Below the pieces are notes generated by a model that was given only the letters and a program-made list of their open reading frames with translations, was not told where the DNA came from and made no database searches. DNA of 32,581 nt from Verrucomicrobiota bacterium (lineage in GTDB: Bacteria > Verrucomicrobiota > Verrucomicrobiia > Verrucomicrobiales > DEV007): assembly GCA_030625775.1 (NCBI GenBank), contig DAOUQC010000059.1:1-32581 (forward strand), written 5' to 3'. The position numbers and the translations under genes were made by a program. Of this stretch, positions 5,055 through 15,992 are shown piece after piece. Each line of letters opens with the position of its first letter. Position 1 is the stretch's first letter.

Positions 5055-5300
5055 ATGAGTTACCTTGATGCCATGACAGCAGAAGCTCTCTTGGAAGAAA
5101 ATGTTCGCTATGACCGTGGTGGAAATCCTGTCGAAGTTGTCATTCCCTACGCAGACTTTATCGACTTTATCGAATCCTATGGGCTGGATTTGAGCGATAC
5201 TGAAAAATCAAATATTCGCGAGGCACGGACAGATATTAAAAGCAAGCATTTTGAAAACTTTGTAAGTGCAGAGGAAGCCAAACGCCAGCTAGGGATTTGA
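5055..5300 (+). CDS. Probable type II antitoxin
   Basis: An 81-residue, charged and mostly helical product with the block VEVVIPYADFIDFIESY and a C-terminal SAEEAKRQLGI tail, as found in small antitoxins whose disordered C-terminus wraps the toxin. I cannot place it confidently in Phd/YefM or another named family. Its TGA (5298-5300) shares one base with the ATG of the toxin gene, the standard arrangement for a bicistronic toxin-antitoxin unit. Such antitoxins usually repress their own promoter with the toxin as co-repressor; no operator was identified here. Confidence 0.75.
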   Translation: MSYLDAMTAEALLEENVRYDRGGNPVEVVIPYADFIDFIESYGLDLSDTEKSNIREARTDIKSKHFENFVSAEEAKRQLGI

Positions 5301-5590
5301 TGCACCGTTACATCCTCTCGCGTAGTGCATTAAAATCCATACGACCTATCCCGAAACCGAGAGCAAAACAGATTATTGCCGCCTTTGACGAACCGGTTTC
5401 TACAGAAAAACCAGCTGAACACCGTAATGTCAAAGCAATGAAAGGCACTTGGAGCGGTATGTATAGAATTAGAATTGGCGAATACCGTGCCCTATTTGAG
5501 ATAATCCCTGATCCGGACTCCAAACCCGAACACAAGCTGCTGCTGTTGAGCATTGAAGCTATAAGAACCCGGAGTGGGATTTACGGCTAA
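5300..5590 (+). CDS. RelE/ParE-superfamily toxin
   Basis: A 96-residue protein with the RelE/ParE layout: an N-terminal strand and helix (YILSRSALKSIRPIPKPRAKQI), a central KAMKGTWSGMYRIRIGEYRALFEI segment typical of the family's beta-sheet, and a short C-terminal strand. RelE members cleave mRNA on the ribosome and ParE members poison gyrase; the sequence alone does not decide between them. The ATG at 5300 overlaps the antitoxin stop by one base; a TTG at 5297 is an alternative. The final residues (RTRSGIYG) are short of some homologues, and another reading frame is open just after the stop. Confidence 0.82.
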   Translation: MHRYILSRSALKSIRPIPKPRAKQIIAAFDEPVSTEKPAEHRNVKAMKGTWSGMYRIRIGEYRALFEIIPDPDSKPEHKLLLLSIEAIRTRSGIYG

Positions 5591-5695: not shown

Positions 5696-6328
5696 CTACA
5701 CCAACTTCCCGTCATCCAGGAAAAACTCCTTATCCGCAATCAAATCAGCTTCCCGCCGACTGTGAGTGATATGCAAGGCTGTAATCCCGTGCTCCTTCAC
5801 CACTGAGCGAATCAATTCCACCATGCCTTCGTGTGTCTCTTCATCGAGCGCACTCAAAGGTTCATCCAGACACAAAACCTTCGGCCTGACTGCCAAAGCA
5901 CGGCCCAGCGCCACCCGTTGGCGTTCTCCTCCGCTCAAACCAAAGGGCTTGCGTTCCAGAATACTCTCGATACCCAATTCCTCGGCCAATTCCGGCACCC
6001 TCTTATCAATCTCTTTTTTCGCCCAGCCCTGAACCTTCGGCCCGAAGGCCAATTGCTGGCGCACGCTCATCGTCGCAAACAAGGCCCCATCCTGTGGCAC
6101 AAAACCAATCCCCCGCTCTCCCGCCCGCAAATGGGTCACATCCCTACCCATCAAAGTAATCTTCCCGCTTAGCACTTCTTTCAAACCGCAGATCGCTTCC
6201 AAAATCGTCGTCTTGCCACAACCCGTTTTCCCCATCAACACCCCGTGTTCACCAGTAGGCACCTCGAAGGAAATACCTTCAATGCAAAAGTCCCCGGCCC
6301 TGACTGAAAGTTGTTCAACCGAAATCAT
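5696..6328 (-). CDS. ModC-like molybdate/tungstate ABC transporter ATPase
   Basis: A 210-residue ABC ATPase with Walker A (GKTGCGKTT), Q-loop (GFVPQDGALF), signature LSGGERQR, Walker B (VLCLDEPLSALDE) and H-loop (HITHSR). It would power uptake through the ModB-like permease just upstream in the operon, whose TAA lies two bases before this ATG. It is much shorter than full ModC (about 350 residues) because it lacks the C-terminal TOBE regulatory domain that senses oxyanion. It is the last gene of the nine-gene minus-strand cluster. Substrate assignment (molybdate, tungstate or sulfate) rests on the ModA-like partner. Confidence 0.85.
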   Translation of the reverse strand: MISVEQLSVRAGDFCIEGISFEVPTGEHGVLMGKTGCGKTTILEAICGLKEVLSGKITLMGRDVTHLRAGERGIGFVPQDGALFATMSVRQQLAFGPKVQGWAKKEIDKRVPELAEELGIESILERKPFGLSGGERQRVALGRALAVRPKVLCLDEPLSALDEETHEGMVELIRSVVKEHGITALHITHSRREADLIADKEFFLDDGKLV

Positions 6329-6330
6329 TT

Positions 6331-7227
6331 TTACAGCACATACTTTTTACGACTCCCTCGATCCCACATTCTGACGGCGATCAAAACCACCACCGCAATC
6401 GTCACCATCATCAGCGATACGATCACCGCCCCTTCCAGATTACCTATACTGATCTCCAAAAATACCGAAGAAGACAACACTTCGGTGCGTCCACGTATTG
6501 TTCCGGCAAAGACCAGAATGGGGCCAAATTCCCCCATCGCCCGGGTCCACGCCAGAGTCCCTGCGGTTGAAATTCCCCGCCAGGCCTCGGGCACCACCAC
6601 CCGAAAAAATGCCTGTGATCGATTACAACCCAAAGTCAGAGCCACCTGCTCGGCCCGTGGACTGATCTGGTCAAACGTATTGCGCATGGTGCGAACCGCA
6701 AAGGCCGCCGCCACGGTGAACTGGGCAAGAATCACCGCCGGCACTTTGTATGTGATGCCTGCCTCCATACCTTCTGGCATGAAGGGGCCAAAAATCTTAC
6801 CGAACATTTCTTCAAAACTCGGACCATCTATGCCAAACCACTCCCAGGGCGGCATCTTATTAAACAAAATCAACAGACTCAAACCCACCACCAGTGGTGG
6901 CAATACAATTGGAATATCCAATGCCGCATCGATTACCGTTTTGCCGCGAAAATCATAACGGGACAACAGATAGCCAATCGGCAGGGCCACAATCACCGAC
7001 ATGATCGCTGTCACCGTGCAAGTGAACAAAGTCAGCTTCACCGATTTCTGAATATATTCATCCCCCAGTATCCCCTTGAATTCCTCCCACCCCACATTGC
7101 TCACTGAATAGAACACATCGGCCATCAGCATCCCACCAATCAACAGCAGATACATCACGGCAATGCCTATCATTGCCGAAAAAAACGGAATGTCCGAGCG
7201 AACTCTAATTGGTGAAGGGTTCGCCAC
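6331..7227 (-). CDS. ModB-like ABC transporter permease
   Basis: An inner-membrane permease of the molybdate/tungstate/sulfate ABC family. With the GTG at 7227 it has 298 residues, and the hydrophobic segments begin at IPFFSAMIGIAVMYLLLIGG. The EAA loop that contacts the ATPase is clear (EAWRGISTAGTLAWTRAMGEFG). An ATG at 7281 keeps the frame open and would overlap the upstream lipoprotein gene by 50 nt. I prefer the GTG four bases after that gene's stop, but this is not certain. It is flanked by its predicted binding protein upstream and its ATPase downstream, in standard A-B-C order. Confidence 0.85.
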   Translation of the reverse strand: MANPSPIRVRSDIPFFSAMIGIAVMYLLLIGGMLMADVFYSVSNVGWEEFKGILGDEYIQKSVKLTLFTCTVTAIMSVIVALPIGYLLSRYDFRGKTVIDAALDIPIVLPPLVVGLSLLILFNKMPPWEWFGIDGPSFEEMFGKIFGPFMPEGMEAGITYKVPAVILAQFTVAAAFAVRTMRNTFDQISPRAEQVALTLGCNRSQAFFRVVVPEAWRGISTAGTLAWTRAMGEFGPILVFAGTIRGRTEVLSSSVFLEISIGNLEGAVIVSLMMVTIAVVVLIAVRMWDRGSRKKYVL

Positions 7228-7231
7228 AGTC

Positions 7232-8761
7232 TCAGTTCTCTTTTTTGTCCTCGCCTTTGCCCAGTTCCCAGCGGAAACCATGTTTCATGAACTGTCCCTT
7301 GCCTTGGGCAGACACGGCAGCATCAAAAAATCGATCCAGTAAATAACGATGCTGCGAGTTTTTGGCGACCGCATATGGCTGGTGGGCGACTGCATTGGGT
7401 CGCCCGATTCCAACAATCTCATAATCATCCACCGTCGACTGGCTGGCCATGGCATTGCTTTTATAAACGATCACCGCATCCAGCGATCCCGTCTTGACCT
7501 GGTTGACCAGAAAATCACCAGTCGGGGAATCCATCTTGATATTCCCCGAGTCCACCACCTTCTGATACAGTCCCTCATCCTCCAGCAGAAACTTGGTCAA
7601 AAATCCCAGCGCTGATTTTTGTGGATGGGCGAACCCCAGTTTGAGTCCGTCTTTTGGCAAATCCGTCAGTTTGTAAATCCCCTTTGGATTTCCTTTTTCG
7701 GTGAGAATCACCATTTCATTAGCGGATACCAGAGTTGATTCGAGGAAACGTTCCTCAACCATTTTCATGAATTTTACATCACAGGAAAAATACGCATCGG
7801 GTTTTTCCCCGGCTTTCATCTGCGATACCAACACCCCGCAACCATTATACACCGGCGTGATCGTCACCCCCTCGCGTTTTTCAAAAGCCTTAATCGTATC
7901 CTGAATCGCCGGTCTCAACATCGCCCCACTGAATAACAAAATATCAGGCACCTTTGCCCAGACATCCCCATCGATGATTTCATAACCCTCTGCCTTGAAT
8001 ACTGGCAAGCCCTTGTCTTTTGCCGTGAGATAACGACAAAACCTCAAAGCCTCGGTCGGCTGCTTGGAAGCCTTCAAAACCCCCACCGTGATATTTTTTT
8101 TCTCTGCCTCAAATTCCGGCAAGCTGATAAAATCAATTTCCTCGTACTGATGAGCCAGGGCATCCCAACAAACCACCACATCCACTGTCCCCAACTTCAA
8201 AGCATTTGCCAACTCGTTGACCGTCGGCAATAACACCGTGGGTTTCACATTCTTCCAGATGCCATGTTTGCTGAGAACCTTCTTGGTGAACTTACCCACC
8301 GAAGCGGCATCGGGGTTGGCAATGCCTACTTTCAAATCATCACGAGCCAAATCCTCCAACTTGCTCAAACCCTTGGGATTCCCCTTAGGCACCCCGAAAC
8401 CCGCGCGCATGAATGCCACCGGCATGGTTTCAGCCACCAGTTTTTTACCTTTGGCAATATCAGTATAACCCGAATCAGCGGCTAAATAGATATCACCCGG
8501 TGCAATCTCCAAACTGCTCAACAAGGTACCCGAACCACCATATTGCAGTTGAACCTTGACCCCGTATTCTTCTTCATACTTCTTGGCAATCGCAGCAACC
8601 GGCGCCTTTATTCCCGCTGCGCAAAACATCACCACCGCCTTGCTCGAACTCTCGCCTGCTCCTCCACAAGCCACCAGAAGCAATGCAGGCAAAAACAGAG
8701 CCACTGCCAATCTCAGTGCGAGACCAGCCTGCAAACGAATTTTTCTAAAAAAATAAAACAT
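7232..8761 (-). CDS. Tandem ModA-ModA substrate-binding lipoprotein
   Basis: A 509-residue lipoprotein. The signal peptide ends in the lipobox LLVAC followed by GG near residue 32. Two periplasmic binding-protein-2 modules of the molybdate/tungstate type follow. Module 1 runs from about residue 40 to 265 (VVMFCAAGIKAPV, YGGSGTLLSSLE, GDIYLAADSGYTD). Module 2 runs from about 275 to 490 (ILLFSGAMLRPAI, YNGCGVLVSQM, KPDAYFSCDVKFM). Both contain the GNPKG turn and a PDAASVG/PQKSALG hinge-like segment. Typical ModA proteins have one module of about 250 residues. The ATG at 8761 shares one base with the stop of the E1-like gene and has GGAAA upstream, so it is preferred to 8776. Confidence 0.88.
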   Translation of the reverse strand: MFYFFRKIRLQAGLALRLAVALFLPALLLVACGGAGESSSKAVVMFCAAGIKAPVAAIAKKYEEEYGVKVQLQYGGSGTLLSSLEIAPGDIYLAADSGYTDIAKGKKLVAETMPVAFMRAGFGVPKGNPKGLSKLEDLARDDLKVGIANPDAASVGKFTKKVLSKHGIWKNVKPTVLLPTVNELANALKLGTVDVVVCWDALAHQYEEIDFISLPEFEAEKKNITVGVLKASKQPTEALRFCRYLTAKDKGLPVFKAEGYEIIDGDVWAKVPDILLFSGAMLRPAIQDTIKAFEKREGVTITPVYNGCGVLVSQMKAGEKPDAYFSCDVKFMKMVEERFLESTLVSANEMVILTEKGNPKGIYKLTDLPKDGLKLGFAHPQKSALGFLTKFLLEDEGLYQKVVDSGNIKMDSPTGDFLVNQVKTGSLDAVIVYKSNAMASQSTVDDYEIVGIGRPNAVAHQPYAVAKNSQHRYLLDRFFDAAVSAQGKGQFMKHGFRWELGKGEDKKEN

Positions 8762-9522
8762 CACAATTTTCCACAAACTTTACAATCGGGGTTTCGAACA
8801 ATTGCCACTTTCTGCAACTTCATCGCCACAGTGTCAAAGTGAATCAATCGACTCAAGTTTACGCCAGACATTCCCGTGATCAATTTTATTCCTTCTATCG
8901 CTCCTATGTTGGCGATCAGAGCCGAGACCGCTCCAACCACCGGGAAACGACGTTTCCAATGAGGCGGCAACTCTGGATACAGGCAGGCCAGACAGGCTGT
9001 TTCACCCGGCACAATGGGGATCACCTGCCCTTCCATATTGAACATCGCACAATCAATCAGTGGTTTCCGCTGGTTCACACACTCCCTATTCATCAAAAAA
9101 CGCTCTTCGAACAATGGTGCCGCATCAAAAACAATATCTGCGCGTGCCACCAAACCCGCTGCATTGTCCTCAGTGATATTTTCCGCCACTGTCTCAACTT
9201 CAACATGGGGATTGAAAGCGCTTAAAGTTGCCGCAGCGGCATCCACTCGGGTTTTCCCCAGATAGTCGTGCTGCATCAGAGTCTGCCGATTCAAATCATC
9301 CGGCTTCAAATTTCCACCATGAACCAGAATCAGCTTGCCGATCCCTGCCGCCGCCAGTGACATGGCCAGCGGCCCACCCAAACCACCTATCCGCGAAACC
9401 AGCGCGGTGGTATTGCGCAACTTCACTTGTCCCTGCTCACCCAATCCGGGCACGTCCAATTGCCATTCATAGATCTGCCGATCACGATCCGACAGTTCAA
9501 ATCCGCTCCCAGTATCTTCCAT
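8761..9522 (-). CDS. MoeB/ThiF/HesA-family E1-like adenylyltransferase
   Basis: A 253-residue cytoplasmic enzyme that would adenylate the C-terminal glycine of a ubiquitin-like sulfur carrier, here most simply the MoaD-like protein encoded upstream. Visible marks are the N-terminal RDRQIYEWQL helix, the nucleotide-binding RIGGLGGPLAMSLAAAGIG loop, the DLNRQ segment that positions ATP, and zinc-binding CLAC and CKVC pairs. A candidate conserved Cys lies in ETACLAC. Length and layout fit MoeB without a rhodanese domain. The ATG at 9522 is used because the 9534 alternative is TTG. It is the first gene after the palindromic gap and is tightly joined to the tandem ModA gene. Confidence 0.88.
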   Translation of the reverse strand: MEDTGSGFELSDRDRQIYEWQLDVPGLGEQGQVKLRNTTALVSRIGGLGGPLAMSLAAAGIGKLILVHGGNLKPDDLNRQTLMQHDYLGKTRVDAAAATLSAFNPHVEVETVAENITEDNAAGLVARADIVFDAAPLFEERFLMNRECVNQRKPLIDCAMFNMEGQVIPIVPGETACLACLYPELPPHWKRRFPVVGAVSALIANIGAIEGIKLITGMSGVNLSRLIHFDTVAMKLQKVAIVRNPDCKVCGKL

Positions 9523-9565
9523 TGTGATGCACAAAAAAACTCAACTATTCAGACCTTCAATTTCC

Positions 9566-9645
9566 ACCATGAATGGCTTGAAGGGCATGAAGATAACTGA
9601 ACAAAAAACATCTGCCTTTCTTCATGCTCTTAAATCCTTCATGGT
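9566..9645. repeat. Large imperfect palindrome inside the minus-strand cluster
   Basis: The 157-nt gap between moaD and the E1 gene holds nested inverted repeats. ACCATGAA (9566-9573) pairs with TTCATGGT (9638-9645), and GCATGAAGA (9585-9593) pairs with TCTTCATGC (9619-9627). The bases between can also pair apart from a few mismatches and one bulge, giving arms of about 27 nt around a 25-nt A-rich loop. It could be an intra-operon processing or attenuation hairpin, or a copy of a dispersed repeat. The complementary arms are seen directly; the function is inferred. Confidence 0.7.
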
Positions 9646-9679
9646 AATTTTTCATATCCTGGATTCTTTACCCACTTCT

Positions 9680-9961
9680 CTACCCGCCGGCGATAGGCGT
9701 CATCAGCATCAAGACCTTCACTGCTGACAAGTCCAGATTATCCTTGTCTCCTGCCGCCTGCTCACCATCCAGCGCAGCTAATAATGTTGAGCGGATCCGG
9801 CCATTATCATCAAACACCAATTCCCTGAATTTTTCGCCGTAGTTCTCTGCCAACCCTTTCAAAATCGAGCCAAGAGTTTCACCACCTCTCAATTCCACTT
9901 GCTCCTCGGATACGCCCGTCACCGAAGCCAACTGACCGGTATAATCGATGGTTAACTTCAT
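9680..9961 (-). CDS. MoaD/ThiS-family ubiquitin-like sulfur carrier
   Basis: A 93-residue beta-grasp protein whose last residues are TPIAGG, the diglycine tail that E1-like enzymes adenylate and sulfur donors convert to thiocarboxylate. The sequence begins MKLTIDYTGQLASVTG and has the VELRGGETLGSILKGLAENY segment typical of MoaD. It would supply sulfur to molybdopterin if a MoaE partner exists elsewhere; ThiS-like or other carrier roles are possible. Its ATG overlaps the TGA of the LolD-type gene by 4 nt (ATGA), so it is coupled to the ABC genes and not to the E1 gene, which lies 157 nt further on. Confidence 0.88.
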   Translation of the reverse strand: MKLTIDYTGQLASVTGVSEEQVELRGGETLGSILKGLAENYGEKFRELVFDDNGRIRSTLLAALDGEQAAGDKDNLDLSAVKVLMLMTPIAGG

Positions 9962-10683
9962 GAGTCGCCTTCCTCCTTGTCTGACTCCCCCTGATCGGAT
10001 TCGAGCAAACGCCCGGCATCAAGGTGCATCGAAGATTTTGCCGCCGCACGAGCACGGTCATCGTGTGTCACCATGATCACCGCCCCTCCCTCATCGGCAA
10101 AATCCGCCAAATGCTGCAAAATAATTTCGGAATTCTCCGGATCGAGATTCCCGGTCGGCTCATCGGCCAAAACCAATTCCGGCGCACGCAGCAAAGCACG
10201 TGCCAGCGCCACCCGTTGCTGCTCACCGATACTAAGCTTTGACGGCACATGGTGCAGACGATGACCGATGTTGAACTTTTCCAACAAGTCATGTGCCCGC
10301 TCCCGCATCGAAACATCGTCCACTGATTGGCTCACCAGATCCCCGACCAATACATTATCCAACACATCGAGGTAGGGAATCAGATGAAATTGCTGAAAAA
10401 CAAAACCCACATGAGCGGCGCGAAAAGTCGCTCGCCCCTCGGCATTCAACTCATAGGGATTTTTACCCGCTATTTCGATAATCCCTTCACCCGGTGAAAG
10501 CAAAGCTCCAGTCATCAATAACAAAGTCGACTTCCCGCAGCCACTCGGACCGTGCAAGGCAACAAAATCGCCCGCTTGCACCTCGAATGAAACATCGTTC
10601 ACCGCATGAACCTCCCCCTCGGCAGTCACAAATCGTTTGTGCAGACCTCTTGCTTTCACTGCTGGATGGCGGGCTTCAGTCAT
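9958..10683 (-). CDS. LolD/MacB-type ABC transporter ATPase
   Basis: A 241-residue ABC ATPase of the lipoprotein-export/MacB/FtsE group, with Walker A (GPSGCGKST), Q-loop (FVFQQFHLIPYLDVLDN), signature LSIGEQQR, Walker B (LVLADEPTGNLD) and H-loop (MVTHD). It should form a mechanotransmission-type complex with the FtsX-like permease encoded immediately before it, whose stop lies 8 nt inside this reading frame when the ATG at 10683 is used. An ATG at 10695 would add four residues. The tail after residue 225 is acidic (ESDQGESDKEEGDS). Cargo is unknown; the neighbours point to an envelope function. Confidence 0.9.
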   Translation of the reverse strand: MTEARHPAVKARGLHKRFVTAEGEVHAVNDVSFEVQAGDFVALHGPSGCGKSTLLLMTGALLSPGEGIIEIAGKNPYELNAEGRATFRAAHVGFVFQQFHLIPYLDVLDNVLVGDLVSQSVDDVSMRERAHDLLEKFNIGHRLHHVPSKLSIGEQQRVALARALLRAPELVLADEPTGNLDPENSEIILQHLADFADEGGAVIMVTHDDRARAAAKSSMHLDAGRLLESDQGESDKEEGDS

Positions 10684-11956
10684 GGCGTAATACATCTGCT
10701 GGATCTTTCTGGGCAGCCATCAAAGAGGGCAACCAGGCGGACACCGCCGCCAAAACCGGTGCTGCTACCAAGGCCACCAACCAATCACTGCCAGCAAGCA
10801 CATCCCCCATCGCAACGCCTTGAAAAAAGCGCTCCTTGAGCAAAGGGTAAGTGATAACAAAAGCGGTCACCCCGGCGATGGCCCCTAACAAGCCTGCCAA
10901 CACGGCCCGTGAAAGAAAAGCCGACAGGATAATCTTCGAACCCACCCCGATCGCCCGCAAAACCCCGATCTCCATCACCCGCTCCCGCACATTCATCAGG
11001 GACAGCATCGCAATCCATACCATCGCAAACAACAATACGATCGGCAGCAGAATGCCCGCAAATTTTTCCCGCTCTGCACTCGATTGCGTCCGATGTGATT
11101 TGGCGGCAGCGATTTGTTTCTCAGCCGTCGCCTTGGCCTTGGTTCGTGATTCCGCACGGGCCAGTGCCGTGCTCCCGGTCTCAGTGATCTGGGTATCGGG
11201 CAAAATCTGCATCAACTCCGCACGAATTTCTCCCAGACGATCCAAAGTCGCACAATTACACTCGAGCGCTTGAATCGCGTTGATCTGCCCTTGTTTGCCC
11301 AACAGTTCCTGACACTCGCTCAAATTCATCCACATGGTGATGTCATCCTTGGTGCCTCTCTCCGGGTAGGCCTTGCCCAGCTTGAACTTCTTACCCTTGA
11401 ATACCAACTCATCCCCTTCTTTAAGATCCAAACTGCGGTGCAGCTCATAACCGAGAACCAAGTCGCCCTTTTTCACCGGATCAATCAAGGGTGATTTCGG
11501 ATCGCGATGCGCCAGGGGCACCTCACCTCGAACCCCTATCAAAATCACCGTGCGTTTTTTCTCCGGCCACTCCAGCTTCTGGGTCAGACTCGGCAACAAA
11601 TGATTCACCGTCACAATTTTCGAATTTGCCAAAGTCGTTGCATACTCTTCGGGCATGGTTTTTGAAGCATAACCCTGATCATAGACCTCACTCATGTCCT
11701 GGTCCTTGGGAAAAATGTAGATATTGAAACCCAGCCCCTTCATTGTTTTGCGAATATCATCCTCCAACTGCTTCATCTCCTGCTGGGTATCCGCTTCCAT
11801 CTTTGCAATGATTCGATCTGAATTCAGATCGTAAGATCGCATCGCCGCCAGTGTAGCCAGAACACAAGTGACGGCTAAAGCCACTCCTGCAAGAGTGAGA
11901 AAAAAGTTTGTCTTGCGGTGAGAAATTTCCCGCGTCACCAGCCTACTCAAGTTCAT
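10676..11956 (-). CDS. FtsX/MacB-type ABC transporter permease
   Basis: A 426-residue membrane protein with one N-terminal transmembrane helix (NFFLTLAGVALAVTCVLATLA), a large extracytoplasmic domain of about 250 residues, and three C-terminal helices (GILLPIVLLFAMVWIAMLSL, then two more), the usual FtsX-superfamily topology. The segment NVRERVMEIGVLRAIG before the third helix is a family hallmark. The ATG at 11956 is one base after the stop of the preceding gene and avoids the overlap that 11995 would create. It is partnered with the downstream LolD-type ATPase. Whether it moves lipoproteins, a small molecule, or transmits force to periplasmic partners is unknown. Confidence 0.88.
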   Translation of the reverse strand: MNLSRLVTREISHRKTNFFLTLAGVALAVTCVLATLAAMRSYDLNSDRIIAKMEADTQQEMKQLEDDIRKTMKGLGFNIYIFPKDQDMSEVYDQGYASKTMPEEYATTLANSKIVTVNHLLPSLTQKLEWPEKKRTVILIGVRGEVPLAHRDPKSPLIDPVKKGDLVLGYELHRSLDLKEGDELVFKGKKFKLGKAYPERGTKDDITMWMNLSECQELLGKQGQINAIQALECNCATLDRLGEIRAELMQILPDTQITETGSTALARAESRTKAKATAEKQIAAAKSHRTQSSAEREKFAGILLPIVLLFAMVWIAMLSLMNVRERVMEIGVLRAIGVGSKIILSAFLSRAVLAGLLGAIAGVTAFVITYPLLKERFFQGVAMGDVLAGSDWLVALVAAPVLAAVSAWLPSLMAAQKDPADVLRHD

Positions 11957-11957
11957 A

Positions 11958-13220
11958 TCAGTCGGCGTTTTTCTTGAGCAGCACTGTTCCGGCAACTATA
12001 ACAATGACCACCGCCCCGATAATCAGGAGCATGGGCGATACAGGCATTCCCCCACCTTTGGAATCGGAAGCTATGTCTGTAACAACGGGCGCCTCCCCCT
12101 CCTCAGCACTGGACGATGGCGCCGCGCTTGTCGTTGCTCCGCCCTCTGGCGGGCCTGCGGCATGACTGCCTTTCATCGACTGGCCGCCGTCCTTGTTTTT
12201 TGCCATCAAAGCCGCCGTGCCTTCCAGCGGAGGCAACATCTTGTCGATAATCACCTGGCTGCCTTCCATCGCGGCATCCCAATCCATCGCCACCAGCAAA
12301 TCCATTCCAGGGTTCTGATCCTTCACCTCACAGGAACAAGCTCCGGTCAGGTAGGCTGAATGCTCAATAACATTGTCATAGTTAAGCCCCAACCCAATCA
12401 GCGGCTCCAGAATCCTCCCCCGGCCGAAAACCGGAAATGCCATCGGCTCATTGGCATACTCCCCAAGATCATCTTCCAGATTCAACAACATCTGTAAAAA
12501 CACTTCCTCGGCCAAATCCTGCCGTGAAATCCTCATCACTGAAAAGCCGATTTTCAAGGGAACATCCGAGCGCAATACATTCTCTTCATCTCCCGGGCGG
12601 ATCTGTTTCAGCTTCTCCGTATCATTTTTCCCAATGACACCATCCGGCAGCTCCAGTTTCTTGGCGACTTTTTTAGCATTTTCAATCAAGGACTTTTCCG
12701 CCGCATCATCTTTCTCCGCATCGCCACTTTCCACCAGCAGCCATGCTGCTGATTCGCCGGTCAAAATCCGCTTCACTAATTCCTTGCGCACCGGCGACTG
12801 CACGATCTTGTGGGCATTCTCAATCGTCGCATCCCCACTCCAGATAGGTTTGGTCAAAAATCCACGCATCTTGCCCGGATAAAAAAGATCCATGCGTGCC
12901 ACACTGCTGTCGTTTTCACCATCAGCATTCACTTTGACCGTGATATTTGCGGGAAAATCCTCATCATTTGCCGCATCCCGCAAAGCCTTCAACGCCTCCT
13001 CTTCCGCAGGCTTCAGTCCTCCCTTCGCCGGCACGCAGACCAATTCATAGGAATCCGAAGCCCATCTCTCAAGTGCATAACGAAAGACCGGCACCTGGCA
13101 GGCAAGCAGAATACCTGCCCCGGATAGACTCAAGAACAAAACAAGGGCAAAGAACCACCGGGGTAAGGTGGACGAGTAGGGGGAATTTATTTTTACAAAC
13201 ACGGCGCGGTAATCTGGCAC
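11958..13220 (-). CDS. Unknown doubly membrane-anchored protein with CSC motif
   Basis: About 420 residues that I cannot assign to a named family. There is an N-terminal transmembrane segment (RWFFALVLFLSLSGAGILLAC), a soluble region, a Pro/Ser/Ala/Gly-rich linker around residues 345-390 and a C-terminal transmembrane helix (MLLIIGAVVIVIVAGTVLL) before KKNAD. Recognisable blocks are CQVPVFRYALERW, SPVRKELVKRILTGESAAW, FPVFGRGRILEPLIGLGLNY and TGACSCEVKDQNPGMDLL. The middle resembles thioredoxin-fold proteins weakly. From memory, similar blocks occur in planctomycete proteins near ABC genes, which I cannot verify here. The GTG at 13220 sits directly against GGGAGG, so the start is uncertain; a GTG at 13202 is an alternative. 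Confidence 0.75.
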   Translation of the reverse strand: MPDYRAVFVKINSPYSSTLPRWFFALVLFLSLSGAGILLACQVPVFRYALERWASDSYELVCVPAKGGLKPAEEEALKALRDAANDEDFPANITVKVNADGENDSSVARMDLFYPGKMRGFLTKPIWSGDATIENAHKIVQSPVRKELVKRILTGESAAWLLVESGDAEKDDAAEKSLIENAKKVAKKLELPDGVIGKNDTEKLKQIRPGDEENVLRSDVPLKIGFSVMRISRQDLAEEVFLQMLLNLEDDLGEYANEPMAFPVFGRGRILEPLIGLGLNYDNVIEHSAYLTGACSCEVKDQNPGMDLLVAMDWDAAMEGSQVIIDKMLPPLEGTAALMAKNKDGGQSMKGSHAAGPPEGGATTSAAPSSSAEEGEAPVVTDIASDSKGGGMPVSPMLLIIGAVVIVIVAGTVLLKKNAD

Positions 13221-13304: not shown

Positions 13305-14852
13305 TCACTTTGGAAAAATCGGGGTAAAATTCCACAGCTGATTCAACAATCCCTTGGGTTGAGCCACTGCATCCTGCAACACACCTTTGTAAACCACCCG
13401 AATCACATAACCCAGGTCACGTTCCGGGTGAATTACGCCCCCTTCCAGACGTGGTGGCACATCATACAAAAACTCAAGCACCTCAGGTTGATCAATCGTC
13501 CAATCGGGTAAAATCGAAATCCAACGCACCTCCGGCTCACCCGATTGAATCAAGTGAACCTTTTCAGCATCCGCCAGATCAAAAAAGAAAACCTGGATTT
13601 CAACCTGTGAAGGATCAATCGCCTGGGGAGCCTTTTCTTTGGTCGCCTTTTTTTTGGTCGCTTTAGTATCATCCTCCTCATCACTCCCACCTTTCATCGC
13701 TTCACTTTTCGCCTCACGTCTGGAAATAGGCAATACCAGCCGCAGCCTGCCGGGCTCTTTTTTCTTTTCTCTGGCCGCCTCTCCTCCTGCCAAATCAGCC
13801 AGCAGGGAAAGATCCACATCTTCGATTTTGAGCAGAGCCTTGCTGGTTTTTTCCAGGGCTACACGCTTTTTGAGCTCGGCATCGATAAATTTCACATACC
13901 GTTTCACACCATCAGCCGTCAGTTTGGCAACCTTGGCGGGATCCAGTTCACGCCCCAACTCCAACTGGATTGCCGGATAATGTGCTGCCTGAAGGGCCGG
14001 ACTGCGCCCAAAGCGAATCCCGGCATCCTTCCCGCCCGCTCCCGAGACAATATTACCCTGAATCAAAGTCGCCAAGGCCAGATTTTCCGCATCGAACAGA
14101 TTGCCGGCAAAAACCGTTTGCTCAGCTTTTGAAGTCGCCCCCCCCACATGCACCGGCGCACCAGCTGAAGCGAGAATCACCGAGCGAATCTCATCCTTCG
14201 ACACCCCTTTTGCCCCGGCAACCACCCGCAGCATTAACGAACCTCCCACTCCCCCGGAATGACGCACCTTCATCGAGACCGGCTGCCCTGGCAAGGTCAC
14301 CCCCCACGGTCCGGAGGCGGTTCCCACCCGCACTTCCACATTTTCTATCCGCAGATGCTCTCTGAGCAACTCGATGACCACATCCGCATTGGCCACCCCT
14401 TCCCCGGAAGCATTTTCGATCAAAATATGCCTTACCGGGCTCGGTTGCATATGACTGGTCGGCCTGAAGATCAAATCCATCACTCCGCGCAAATCAGCGA
14501 CCGATACGATCGCCGTTCGACCTTTGCCCTCGATTGGATACTGCAATTCATAACGTAAGCCGTTGACCTTAAACTCGCGACTTCCCAATTTTGCTTTTAT
14601 TACAACAGAAGGGCTCACTAGAAAAACATGCCCACTGCGCACTTCCGCAGAACGAAAACCATACATTTTTGCCACATTCTCCACCGTCACATAGGGACGG
14701 TAATGCCTCATCACCACGCTCCACTTCGATGCCTGATCCGCTCCCTGCACCAAAACACCTCCCCAGCAAATGATCAGCAGCCCCAAAAAGCTGCTGCTTT
14801 GCCTGCGAAACGAGCGCCAGGCTCTATTTCGAGTTTCACCTATTCGAATCAT
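13305..14852 (-). CDS. Degenerate Amidase_3-like protein with copper-amine-oxidase-N-like domain
   Basis: A 515-residue exported protein. The ATG at 14852 starts a signal peptide ending near VQG-ADQ. Residues about 43-130 resemble the copper amine oxidase N-terminal-like domain (YVTVENVAKMYG, a VNGLRYELQYP hairpin). About 138-340 follows the N-acetylmuramoyl-L-alanine amidase (Amidase_3) order: an ILI strand, a long helix, VEVRVGT, then NLALATLIQ, KDAGIRFG and YPAIQLELG. The DPGH and SIHxN zinc-ligand motifs are absent; only the late Glu of QLELG fits. A Lys-rich linker and a C-terminal beta-rich domain follow. It is the promoter-proximal gene of the cluster and probably a non-catalytic envelope protein. 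Confidence 0.65.
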   Translation of the reverse strand: MIRIGETRNRAWRSFRRQSSSFLGLLIICWGGVLVQGADQASKWSVVMRHYRPYVTVENVAKMYGFRSAEVRSGHVFLVSPSVVIKAKLGSREFKVNGLRYELQYPIEGKGRTAIVSVADLRGVMDLIFRPTSHMQPSPVRHILIENASGEGVANADVVIELLREHLRIENVEVRVGTASGPWGVTLPGQPVSMKVRHSGGVGGSLMLRVVAGAKGVSKDEIRSVILASAGAPVHVGGATSKAEQTVFAGNLFDAENLALATLIQGNIVSGAGGKDAGIRFGRSPALQAAHYPAIQLELGRELDPAKVAKLTADGVKRYVKFIDAELKKRVALEKTSKALLKIEDVDLSLLADLAGGEAAREKKKEPGRLRLVLPISRREAKSEAMKGGSDEEDDTKATKKKATKEKAPQAIDPSQVEIQVFFFDLADAEKVHLIQSGEPEVRWISILPDWTIDQPEVLEFLYDVPPRLEGGVIHPERDLGYVIRVVYKGVLQDAVAQPKGLLNQLWNFTPIFPK

Positions 14853-14942: not shown

Positions 14943-15992
14943 GTGAAAAACTTCACCGAACTGCTCAACGCCAATTGCTCCAGTGACCCTGCCCAACAGC
15001 AGGAGCCAACCACCGAGCTGTTTCCAGCCGAGTTACTTGGTGATGACCTTGAGGGAATTGAAAATGAAATCGCCCGTCAAGCCGAAGCCTTCGACCCGGC
15101 TGTCGCACCCTACATTTCCTACATCTGCAACAACAAGGGCAAGCGCATCCGCCCGGTGCTGACTTTCCTCGCCGGCGGCGCCACGGGAGGAAATACCGAT
15201 GCCCACACCAAACTGGCCACTACCTTGGAGCTGATCCATATGGCCACACTCGTTCATGATGACATCATCGACGAAGCCAAAATCCGGCGCCAGGCACCCA
15301 CCGCCAACGCAAAGTGGGGAGCCTCCCTCAGCGTCCTGCTGGGCGACAGCCTGTTTTCCCAGGCCCTGCTGCTCTCAACCGAATTTGATGATGCATCCAT
15401 TGGCCGCTCGATCGCCCAGGCAACCAAGGATGTCTGCACCGGGGAAATCATCCAGACCCAACGACGTTTTGACTTCCAGCTTTCGCGTGAGGATTATTTC
15501 GAAATCATCCGACTGAAAACCGCCGCTCTTTTTGCCGCTGCCATGGAACTCGGCGCACGCCTGAATGGGCAAAGTGAAACGGTGCAGAGGAAATTGTGTG
15601 ATTATGGTATGAAGATCGGCACCGCATATCAAATTTTTGATGACTGCCTCGACCTGACCGGTGATGAAAGCACCGTGGGAAAAACCCTGCGCACCGACCT
15701 CAACAAAGGCAAACTCACCCTGCCCGTCCTCAACCTGATTGAACAAGCCTCCTCTCAACAGCGAGCCAAACTCAACAAGCTTTTGATTCAGAAAGAGCCC
15801 ATAGATATCTCCACTCTCGGCAGCATCGCTGACTACGAAGGCTCCATCGAAGCCGCTGTTCAAACAGCCAAAGACCTCGTCAACGAAGCCCGCGAATGCC
15901 TCGATATTCTGGAAGACAACGACTACACTGACGCCCTGGGCCAGATCACCCTCTACCTCGACGGTCTGCTCGACAGCTGTTGCGAAAGCTGA
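14943..15992 (+). CDS. trans-polyprenyl diphosphate synthase
   Basis: A 349-residue isoprenoid chain-elongating synthase that condenses isopentenyl diphosphate onto an allylic primer, for quinone side chains or related lipids. The first aspartate-rich motif is DDIID (residues 106-110) followed by RR, and the second is FDDCLD (Asp233-Asp237). GKRIRP near residue 66 binds diphosphate. Length fits octaprenyl/heptaprenyl synthases (IspB/HepT type) better than the farnesyl enzyme IspA. The start is GTG at 14943, 90 nt from the divergent amidase-like gene. Chain length cannot be told from the sequence alone. The C-terminus ends in DSCCES. Confidence 0.9.
   Translation: MKNFTELLNANCSSDPAQQQEPTTELFPAELLGDDLEGIENEIARQAEAFDPAVAPYISYICNNKGKRIRPVLTFLAGGATGGNTDAHTKLATTLELIHMATLVHDDIIDEAKIRRQAPTANAKWGASLSVLLGDSLFSQALLLSTEFDDASIGRSIAQATKDVCTGEIIQTQRRFDFQLSREDYFEIIRLKTAALFAAAMELGARLNGQSETVQRKLCDYGMKIGTAYQIFDDCLDLTGDESTVGKTLRTDLNKGKLTLPVLNLIEQASSQQRAKLNKLLIQKEPIDISTLGSIADYEGSIEAAVQTAKDLVNEARECLDILEDNDYTDALGQITLYLDGLLDSCCES

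Follow-up and report, generated by a model that had tools for sequence, protein, structure and literature searches.

The question raised by this locus is whether a gene whose product resembles the N-acetylmuramoyl-L-alanine amidases of the Amidase_3 family, without their zinc ligands, still has a part in cell wall metabolism, and whether that part is tied to the FtsX/LolD-type transporter genes nearby. The gene lies on the minus strand (13305 to 14852) of a 32,581-nucleotide stretch of DNA from a bacterium of the Verrucomicrobiota (order Verrucomicrobiales), which is referred to here in its full length as the window. A preliminary description, made from the letters alone, had taken the product for a degenerate amidase and had proposed a scaffold or activator comparable to EnvC, acting with an FtsX-type permease.

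The gene encodes a protein of 515 amino acids (ATG at 14852, stop at 13305), or of 528 if an alternative TTG start 39 bases upstream is used. Residues 1 to 37 (14742 to 14852, minus strand) form a probable signal peptide, judged by eye from a charged start and the hydrophobic stretch SFLGLLIICWGGVLV; hydropathy peaks at 2.33 in a 15-residue window, and cleavage is possible after VQG (also by eye). The features that follow, all on the minus strand, are an N-terminal domain common to intact amidases (N-domain; residues 44 to 131, 14460 to 14723), with a mean identity of 29% to 18 canonical proteins; a degenerate Amidase_3 domain (residues 139 to 325, 13878 to 14438), recognized by hhalign and hmmsearch with shuffled controls; a charged linker (residues 331 to 409, 13626 to 13862); and a C-terminal domain (residues 410 to 515, 13308 to 13625). 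The preliminary description had the resemblance to amidases run down to a final QLELG; this motif is present and includes Glu298, but 215 residues follow it, including the separate C-terminal domain. Full-length proteins of the same layout (here called fusion proteins) were found in 9/74 genomes of the family to which the window belongs, and the fusion type was found in 12/13 genomes of a second family of the order, with a full-length copy in 11 and a copy broken into two pieces in the twelfth. Among 386 genomes searched, those of other families gave no match with E below 1e-60, and among 384 genomes of the class, the only matches reaching the C-terminal end were in G000 and G075. A hydrophobic N-terminal stretch was present in the window protein and in 20/20 full-length members, and the window protein appears to be exported.

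The window protein matched no NCBIfam family and gave no direct match to PF01520 in Pfam, where its sole match was to ribosomal L26 (E 0.028), which is below the cut-off and irrelevant; PF01520 was matched by 14/20 of its relatives, and PF07833 (Cu_amine_oxidN1) was matched in the N-domain of 2/20. A search of the whole genome identified a sole close paralogue (E 4.8e-13), encoded by L002:1375-2409:- on contig C83, which is an intact Amidase_3 protein of 344 amino acids (PF01520, E 5.3e-46) with the same N-domain. The two proteins have in common the amidase domain, the N-domain and a GN-D-EN-ALAT segment, whereas the window protein has lost all three ligand columns (both His and the ligand Glu) and two stretches of its paralogue and carries the linker and the C-terminal domain in addition. 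When the window and G055 copies were compared by hhalign with 17 canonical proteins, the result was 99.4% (E 5.4e-22) over 292 columns. Because this span takes in the common N-domain, the comparison was redone on the amidase region alone, which gave 95.5% (E 1.5e-8) with the two-sequence query and 98.0% (E 2.7e-13) with a query of the six-member group described below; the best E values among column-shuffled controls (40 per query) were 0.014 and 0.005, respectively. In hmmsearch, the amidase domain of the window protein scored 34.8 bits, compared with 7.6 bits for the best of 999 shuffled sequences. Two AlphaFold2 predictions from two-row alignments (the window and L004, the latter probably from the G055 genome) had mean pLDDT values of 35.0 and 39.8, too low to be informative about the fold. 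Identification of the window protein as a pseudo-amidase is strongly supported by these profile comparisons, and the degenerate Amidase_3 of the preliminary description is borne out by the homology, the shuffled controls and the relatives. Besides the window gene, its genome contains four PF01520 genes, three of them with intact motifs by eye. The product of L171:4397-5839 in the same genome (C137), with 480 amino acids and a weak Amidase_3 match of 39.8 bits, keeps IDPGH and CLHFN motifs by eye.

The active-site columns were fixed by a profile of canonical proteins aligned with solved amidases, e.g., 4RN7, 1JWQ and AmiC (4BIN). The first-His and Glu ligand region is reduced in the window protein to the remnant IENASGEGVANAD (residues 145 to 157, 14382 to 14420, minus strand), in which IDAGHG has become IENASG, with Ser149 in the first-His column, and a stretch present in canonical proteins is deleted, leaving a gap in the ligand-Glu column. 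In the segment SLMLRVVAG (residues 205 to 213, 14214 to 14240, minus strand), SVHFN has become RVVAG, and the second-His column, which we take to be a zinc ligand, is occupied by Val211. Only the catalytic-Glu column is kept, AILFEGG being represented by AIQLELG (residues 294 to 300, 13953 to 13973, minus strand) with Glu298; a 12-residue stretch that follows this position in canonical proteins is absent. The His-Glu-His zinc ligands are thus lost, with 3/4 active-site positions gone, and the loss read from IENASG and an RVVAG-like segment in the preliminary description holds in aligned columns. Between the second-His and catalytic columns, the segment VFAGNLFDAENLALATLIQG (residues 247 to 266, 14052 to 14111, minus strand) is kept in both degenerate and intact relatives. 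Its N251 and L260 are invariant among 20 relatives, and the GN-D-EN-ALAT pattern is retained, some rows differing from it by single residues. The naming of zinc-ligand and catalytic columns is based on the CwlD residues His49, Glu65 and Glu199 given in the available part of the source (PMC8496864).

The full H-E-H-E set occurs in 0/20 full-length fusion proteins, compared with 20/21 comparison rows, the odd row being L140, which was entered as canonical and proved degenerate; 17 further loci comprised 14 with H-E-H-E, two degenerate and one partial. The fusion proteins have H-E-H-R (3), R-E-H-N (1), G-E-R-R (6, three of them near-identical), G-E-R-K (4) or no ligand (6), counts that exclude the G117 copy, which is broken into two pieces (L113 and L114; R, E, H, N). 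The ligand-less six are the window protein and the copies from G055, G068 and G071 to G073, in which neither His column contains a ligand and the Glu column is gapped; columns in this six-member group rest on a loose alignment, and with another set of rows the outcome was the same apart from small differences in the letters. A check of the zinc ligands in orthologues, called for in the preliminary description, therefore returned no full set in aligned columns, and no displaced but complete site was seen. His residues near the lost loop of the window protein (RPTSHMQPSPVRH) were considered as part of a shifted zinc site and are not common to G068. It is very improbable that the protein is still an enzyme, working through Glu298 and other residues or through another metal. 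The glutamate in the catalytic column, which is also present in G071 to G073 (only 5/20 fusion members in all), is consistent with such activity, but none of the three ligand columns is retained, the catalytic position is occupied by Phe in G068, and the 14 relatives that keep the Glu ligand have Arg, Lys or Asn in place of the catalytic Glu. Without the metal site, Glu298 is not meaningful.

In a phylogenetic tree, a branch that had 100/100 support and recurred in 200/200 bootstrap trees separated the 20 fusion rows from the others, and the six-member group was likewise set apart by a branch (100/100, with long-branch warnings). Addition of six more canonical or degenerate rows left the fusion split with a support of 94/92, long branches being present. 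The root is the midpoint used for drawing; L113, L114, L138 and L139 are excluded from both trees, L140 from the first, and the near-copies L106 and L107 from the enlarged one. Ligand-poor proteins with an N-domain and an amidase domain and without the C-terminal domain are encoded by L140:894-2288 (G052) and L200:550-1551 (G053). These sit among the canonical rows of the tree, and their active-site loss was probably a separate event. At L190:1-1698 (G032:C242), a caspase domain (PF00656, E 1e-29) is joined to an N-domain and a ligand-poor amidase-like domain, on a very long branch whose placement is unsure. Since ligand-poor proteins also occur in G052, G053 and G032, the scaffold has apparently been put to noncatalytic use on more than one occasion. 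Tentatively, the N-domain/Amidase_3 scaffold of this order may have been made secreted and noncatalytic repeatedly (in the fusion group, the G052/G053 pair and G032), giving a periplasmic layer of wall control without a recognizable FtsX-EnvC system.

The window gene and its G055 copy differ by dN 0.134 and dS 1.26, for a dN/dS of about 0.11 (NG86) or 0.06 (YN00), values that are rough because dS is above 1; the ratio of about 0.11 is somewhat above those of three neighbor genes (0.06 to 0.08). By this rough estimate, the pseudo-amidase appears to be under purifying selection. A decaying or mispredicted gene, as might be suspected from the lack of an NCBIfam or relevant Pfam match, is extremely unlikely in light of this ratio, of a reading frame that is uninterrupted in the window, G055 and more distant copies, and of a C-terminal domain that is 60% identical to that of G068. 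Identity to G068 is 36% in the N-domain, 35% in the later part of the amidase domain and 14% in the lost-ligand region. Of the five regions compared between the window and G055, the lost-ligand region is the most similar (92% identity) and the linker the least (59%). Given this similarity, the lost-ligand region may serve a separate function and not be a relic.

The surroundings of the gene were considered next to these results. A polyprenyl diphosphate synthase gene (14943 to 15992, plus strand) is divergent from the pseudo-amidase gene, an arrangement kept in 3/20 full-length loci (window, G055 and G068); by eye, no other neighbor in the full-length loci recurs beyond close relatives. With no neighbor shared across the family, the gene context gives no pointer to wall regulation. 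On the other side, the FtsX and LolD-type genes are on the same stretch, as the preliminary description stated, but they do not adjoin the pseudo-amidase gene: a gene for a conserved 420-amino-acid protein (11958 to 13220, minus strand) intervenes and precedes the permease. This protein has no Pfam or NCBIfam match and is not part of the pseudo-amidase system. The FtsX-like permease, of LolC/MacB type (10676 to 11995, minus strand; PF02687), is below all NCBIfam cut-offs, its best models including LolCE at 34.5 bits (cut-off 362), and FtsX models gave 26.3 and 18.6 bits (cut-offs 225 and 255). The LolD-type ABC ATPase (9958 to 10695, minus strand; PF00005) scored 189 bits with LolD (cut-off 308) and 180 bits with FtsE (cut-off 265). 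The order downstream of the pseudo-amidase gene (5696 to 13220) is the 420-amino-acid protein, permease, ATPase, MoaD, MoeB, a ModA-type protein, ModB and ModC, the last two named by eye. The permease belongs to a molybdate/molybdopterin-type cluster that looks like a different system. To our knowledge, the coupling of a LolC/MacB-type transporter to molybdate and molybdopterin genes is unusual. The ModA-type protein (7232 to 8776) contains two TIGR01256 stretches and may have two substrate-binding halves in one chain. By eye, two small adjacent genes at 5055 to 5590 resemble a toxin-antitoxin pair with a toxin of RelE/ParE type.

Control of the protein, as an EnvC-like scaffold, by the transporter cluster is, in our judgment, highly unlikely. 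In the window and G055, the genes are on the same strand and closely spaced, which would allow co-transcription. The permease was matched in 29 genomes of the family, and in the seven loci chosen from these, the 420-amino-acid protein, permease and ATPase were together in 7/7 (accompanied by MoaD, MoeB and ModA in 5/7), but the pseudo-amidase gene was present in 0/7. In G054, a genome of the same genus, the permease is 87% identical and the cluster is preceded by a different frame, with the contig ending 409 bases upstream of it; no copy of the pseudo-amidase gene was found in this genome, which is 73% complete. The reverse pattern also occurs, as G068 and G071 to G073 have the gene and no permease homologue at 1e-10. 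A homologue at this threshold (E <= 1e-10) is present in 3/9 family genomes with the gene (G000, G055 and G063), in G063 on another contig, and FtsX/LolD genes are near the gene in 2/20 full-length loci (the window and G055, one genus; several contigs are short). The FtsX_ECD domain (PF18075) had no match in the genome of the window, in a search whose control was positive in only 7/14 genomes, such that a divergent FtsX could escape it; the same genome has five M23 genes. The FtsX link suggested at the outset is thus not upheld: on present evidence, FtsX/LolD is not a partner, and the partnership was rejected on gene context and family models.

The C-terminal domain offers a different lead. 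It is all that the window protein has in common with a 378-amino-acid TPR protein of the same genome (L003:1429-2565:-), which is reached from the domain with E 4.2e-4 by the window sequence alone and with 57.9 bits by a profile, and it is covered by none of the Pfam matches of the relatives. In 16 loci of relatives (blastp; some contigs are cut), the gene for this TPR protein was found in 15, a receiver-like gene in 13, a gene for a 303-amino-acid protein in 9 and an intact amidase gene in 6. This cluster gives a weak hint that the C-terminal domain is linked to wall hydrolysis or its control. On C133 of the genome of the window (L170:4505-11348), the gene for the TPR protein with this C-terminal domain is followed by a receiver-like gene, a gene for a 303-amino-acid protein, an intact amidase of 225 amino acids and an NAD(P)HX-type gene. 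A domain without a Pfam match here that recurs in a TPR protein is a second lead from this locus. The weak hint at wall control also bears on the possibility, which we hold to be tenable though doubtful, that the window protein is a structural or peptidoglycan-binding surface protein without regulatory function, with the amidase fold serving as a wall-binding module only. Retention of the N-domain and C-terminal domain, the variability of the active-site region between genera (14% in G068, against 36% and 60% in the end domains) and the varied neighbors are consistent with such a protein; set against this is the occurrence of the TPR cluster with an intact amidase, and the present findings do not separate a structural role from that of a regulator.

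The explanation that we favor, and regard as somewhat probable, is that the secreted pseudo-amidase is a noncatalytic binding factor that acts in the periplasm in wall remodeling. The zinc-binding and cutting parts have been lost, yet selection keeps the gene, so the protein probably binds rather than cuts. The starting point would be a duplicate of an Amidase_3 protein with the N-domain, which would have gained the C-terminal domain and lost catalysis; in the group of the window, the zinc site would have been lost as well. Judged from the sequence, the product would be exported and unable to hydrolyze peptidoglycan, and the parts used for binding may be the N-domain and the GN-D-EN-ALAT segment, both retained, together with the C-terminal domain. 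The protein would most likely be a periplasmic adaptor or competitor that binds peptidoglycan or a partner of the intact amidases.

Inactive wall hydrolases that act as regulators have so far been mostly members of the LytM family, whose degenerate activators reportedly include DipM, together with the cytoplasmic CwlM. The window protein has no match to the LytM (M23) domain PF01551 at E <= 1 and no Pfam match to peptidoglycan-binding domains of the CwlM type. In the available text of PMC4946905, EnvC and CwlM are inactive relatives of wall hydrolases that act as regulators, and the mycobacterial CwlM is a degenerate amidase homologue that activates MurA. CwlM has an amidase fold, degenerate zinc residues and a noncatalytic role (PMC4946905), which correspond to the putative amidase fold, the lost zinc ligands and the probable binding role of the window protein; as described there, however, CwlM is cytoplasmic and phosphorylated and is without a secretion signal, whereas the window protein appears to be exported, belongs to another phylum and has other accessory domains. 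In E. coli amidases, according to the portion of PMC10268282 at hand, a blocking helix of the regulatory domain gates the zinc and an interaction helix binds EnvC. The likeness to EnvC is one of principle only, that of an inactive wall-hydrolase relative as a regulator (PMC4946905 and PMC10268282, in the parts available); EnvC is of the LytM/M23 family, whereas the window protein is an Amidase_3 relative with an unsupported FtsX partner. A further comparison is with CwlD and GerS, as CwlD is an Amidase_3 protein that relies on a partner protein for its function (PMC8496864, available part). CwlD keeps its active residues and is an enzyme, whereas the window protein has lost residues of the kind of His49, Glu65 and Glu199, the columns being assigned by motif without alignment to CwlD. 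The window pseudo-amidase may be comparable in principle to CwlM and EnvC and would be a member of neither system. A literature search for Amidase_3 combined with the word stem Verrucomicrobi- returned no papers. A secreted group of zinc-less Amidase_3 proteins with graded loss of the site would give a stepwise record of the passage from an enzyme to a binding protein and would offer a way to approach control of the cell wall in a phylum that has received little study.
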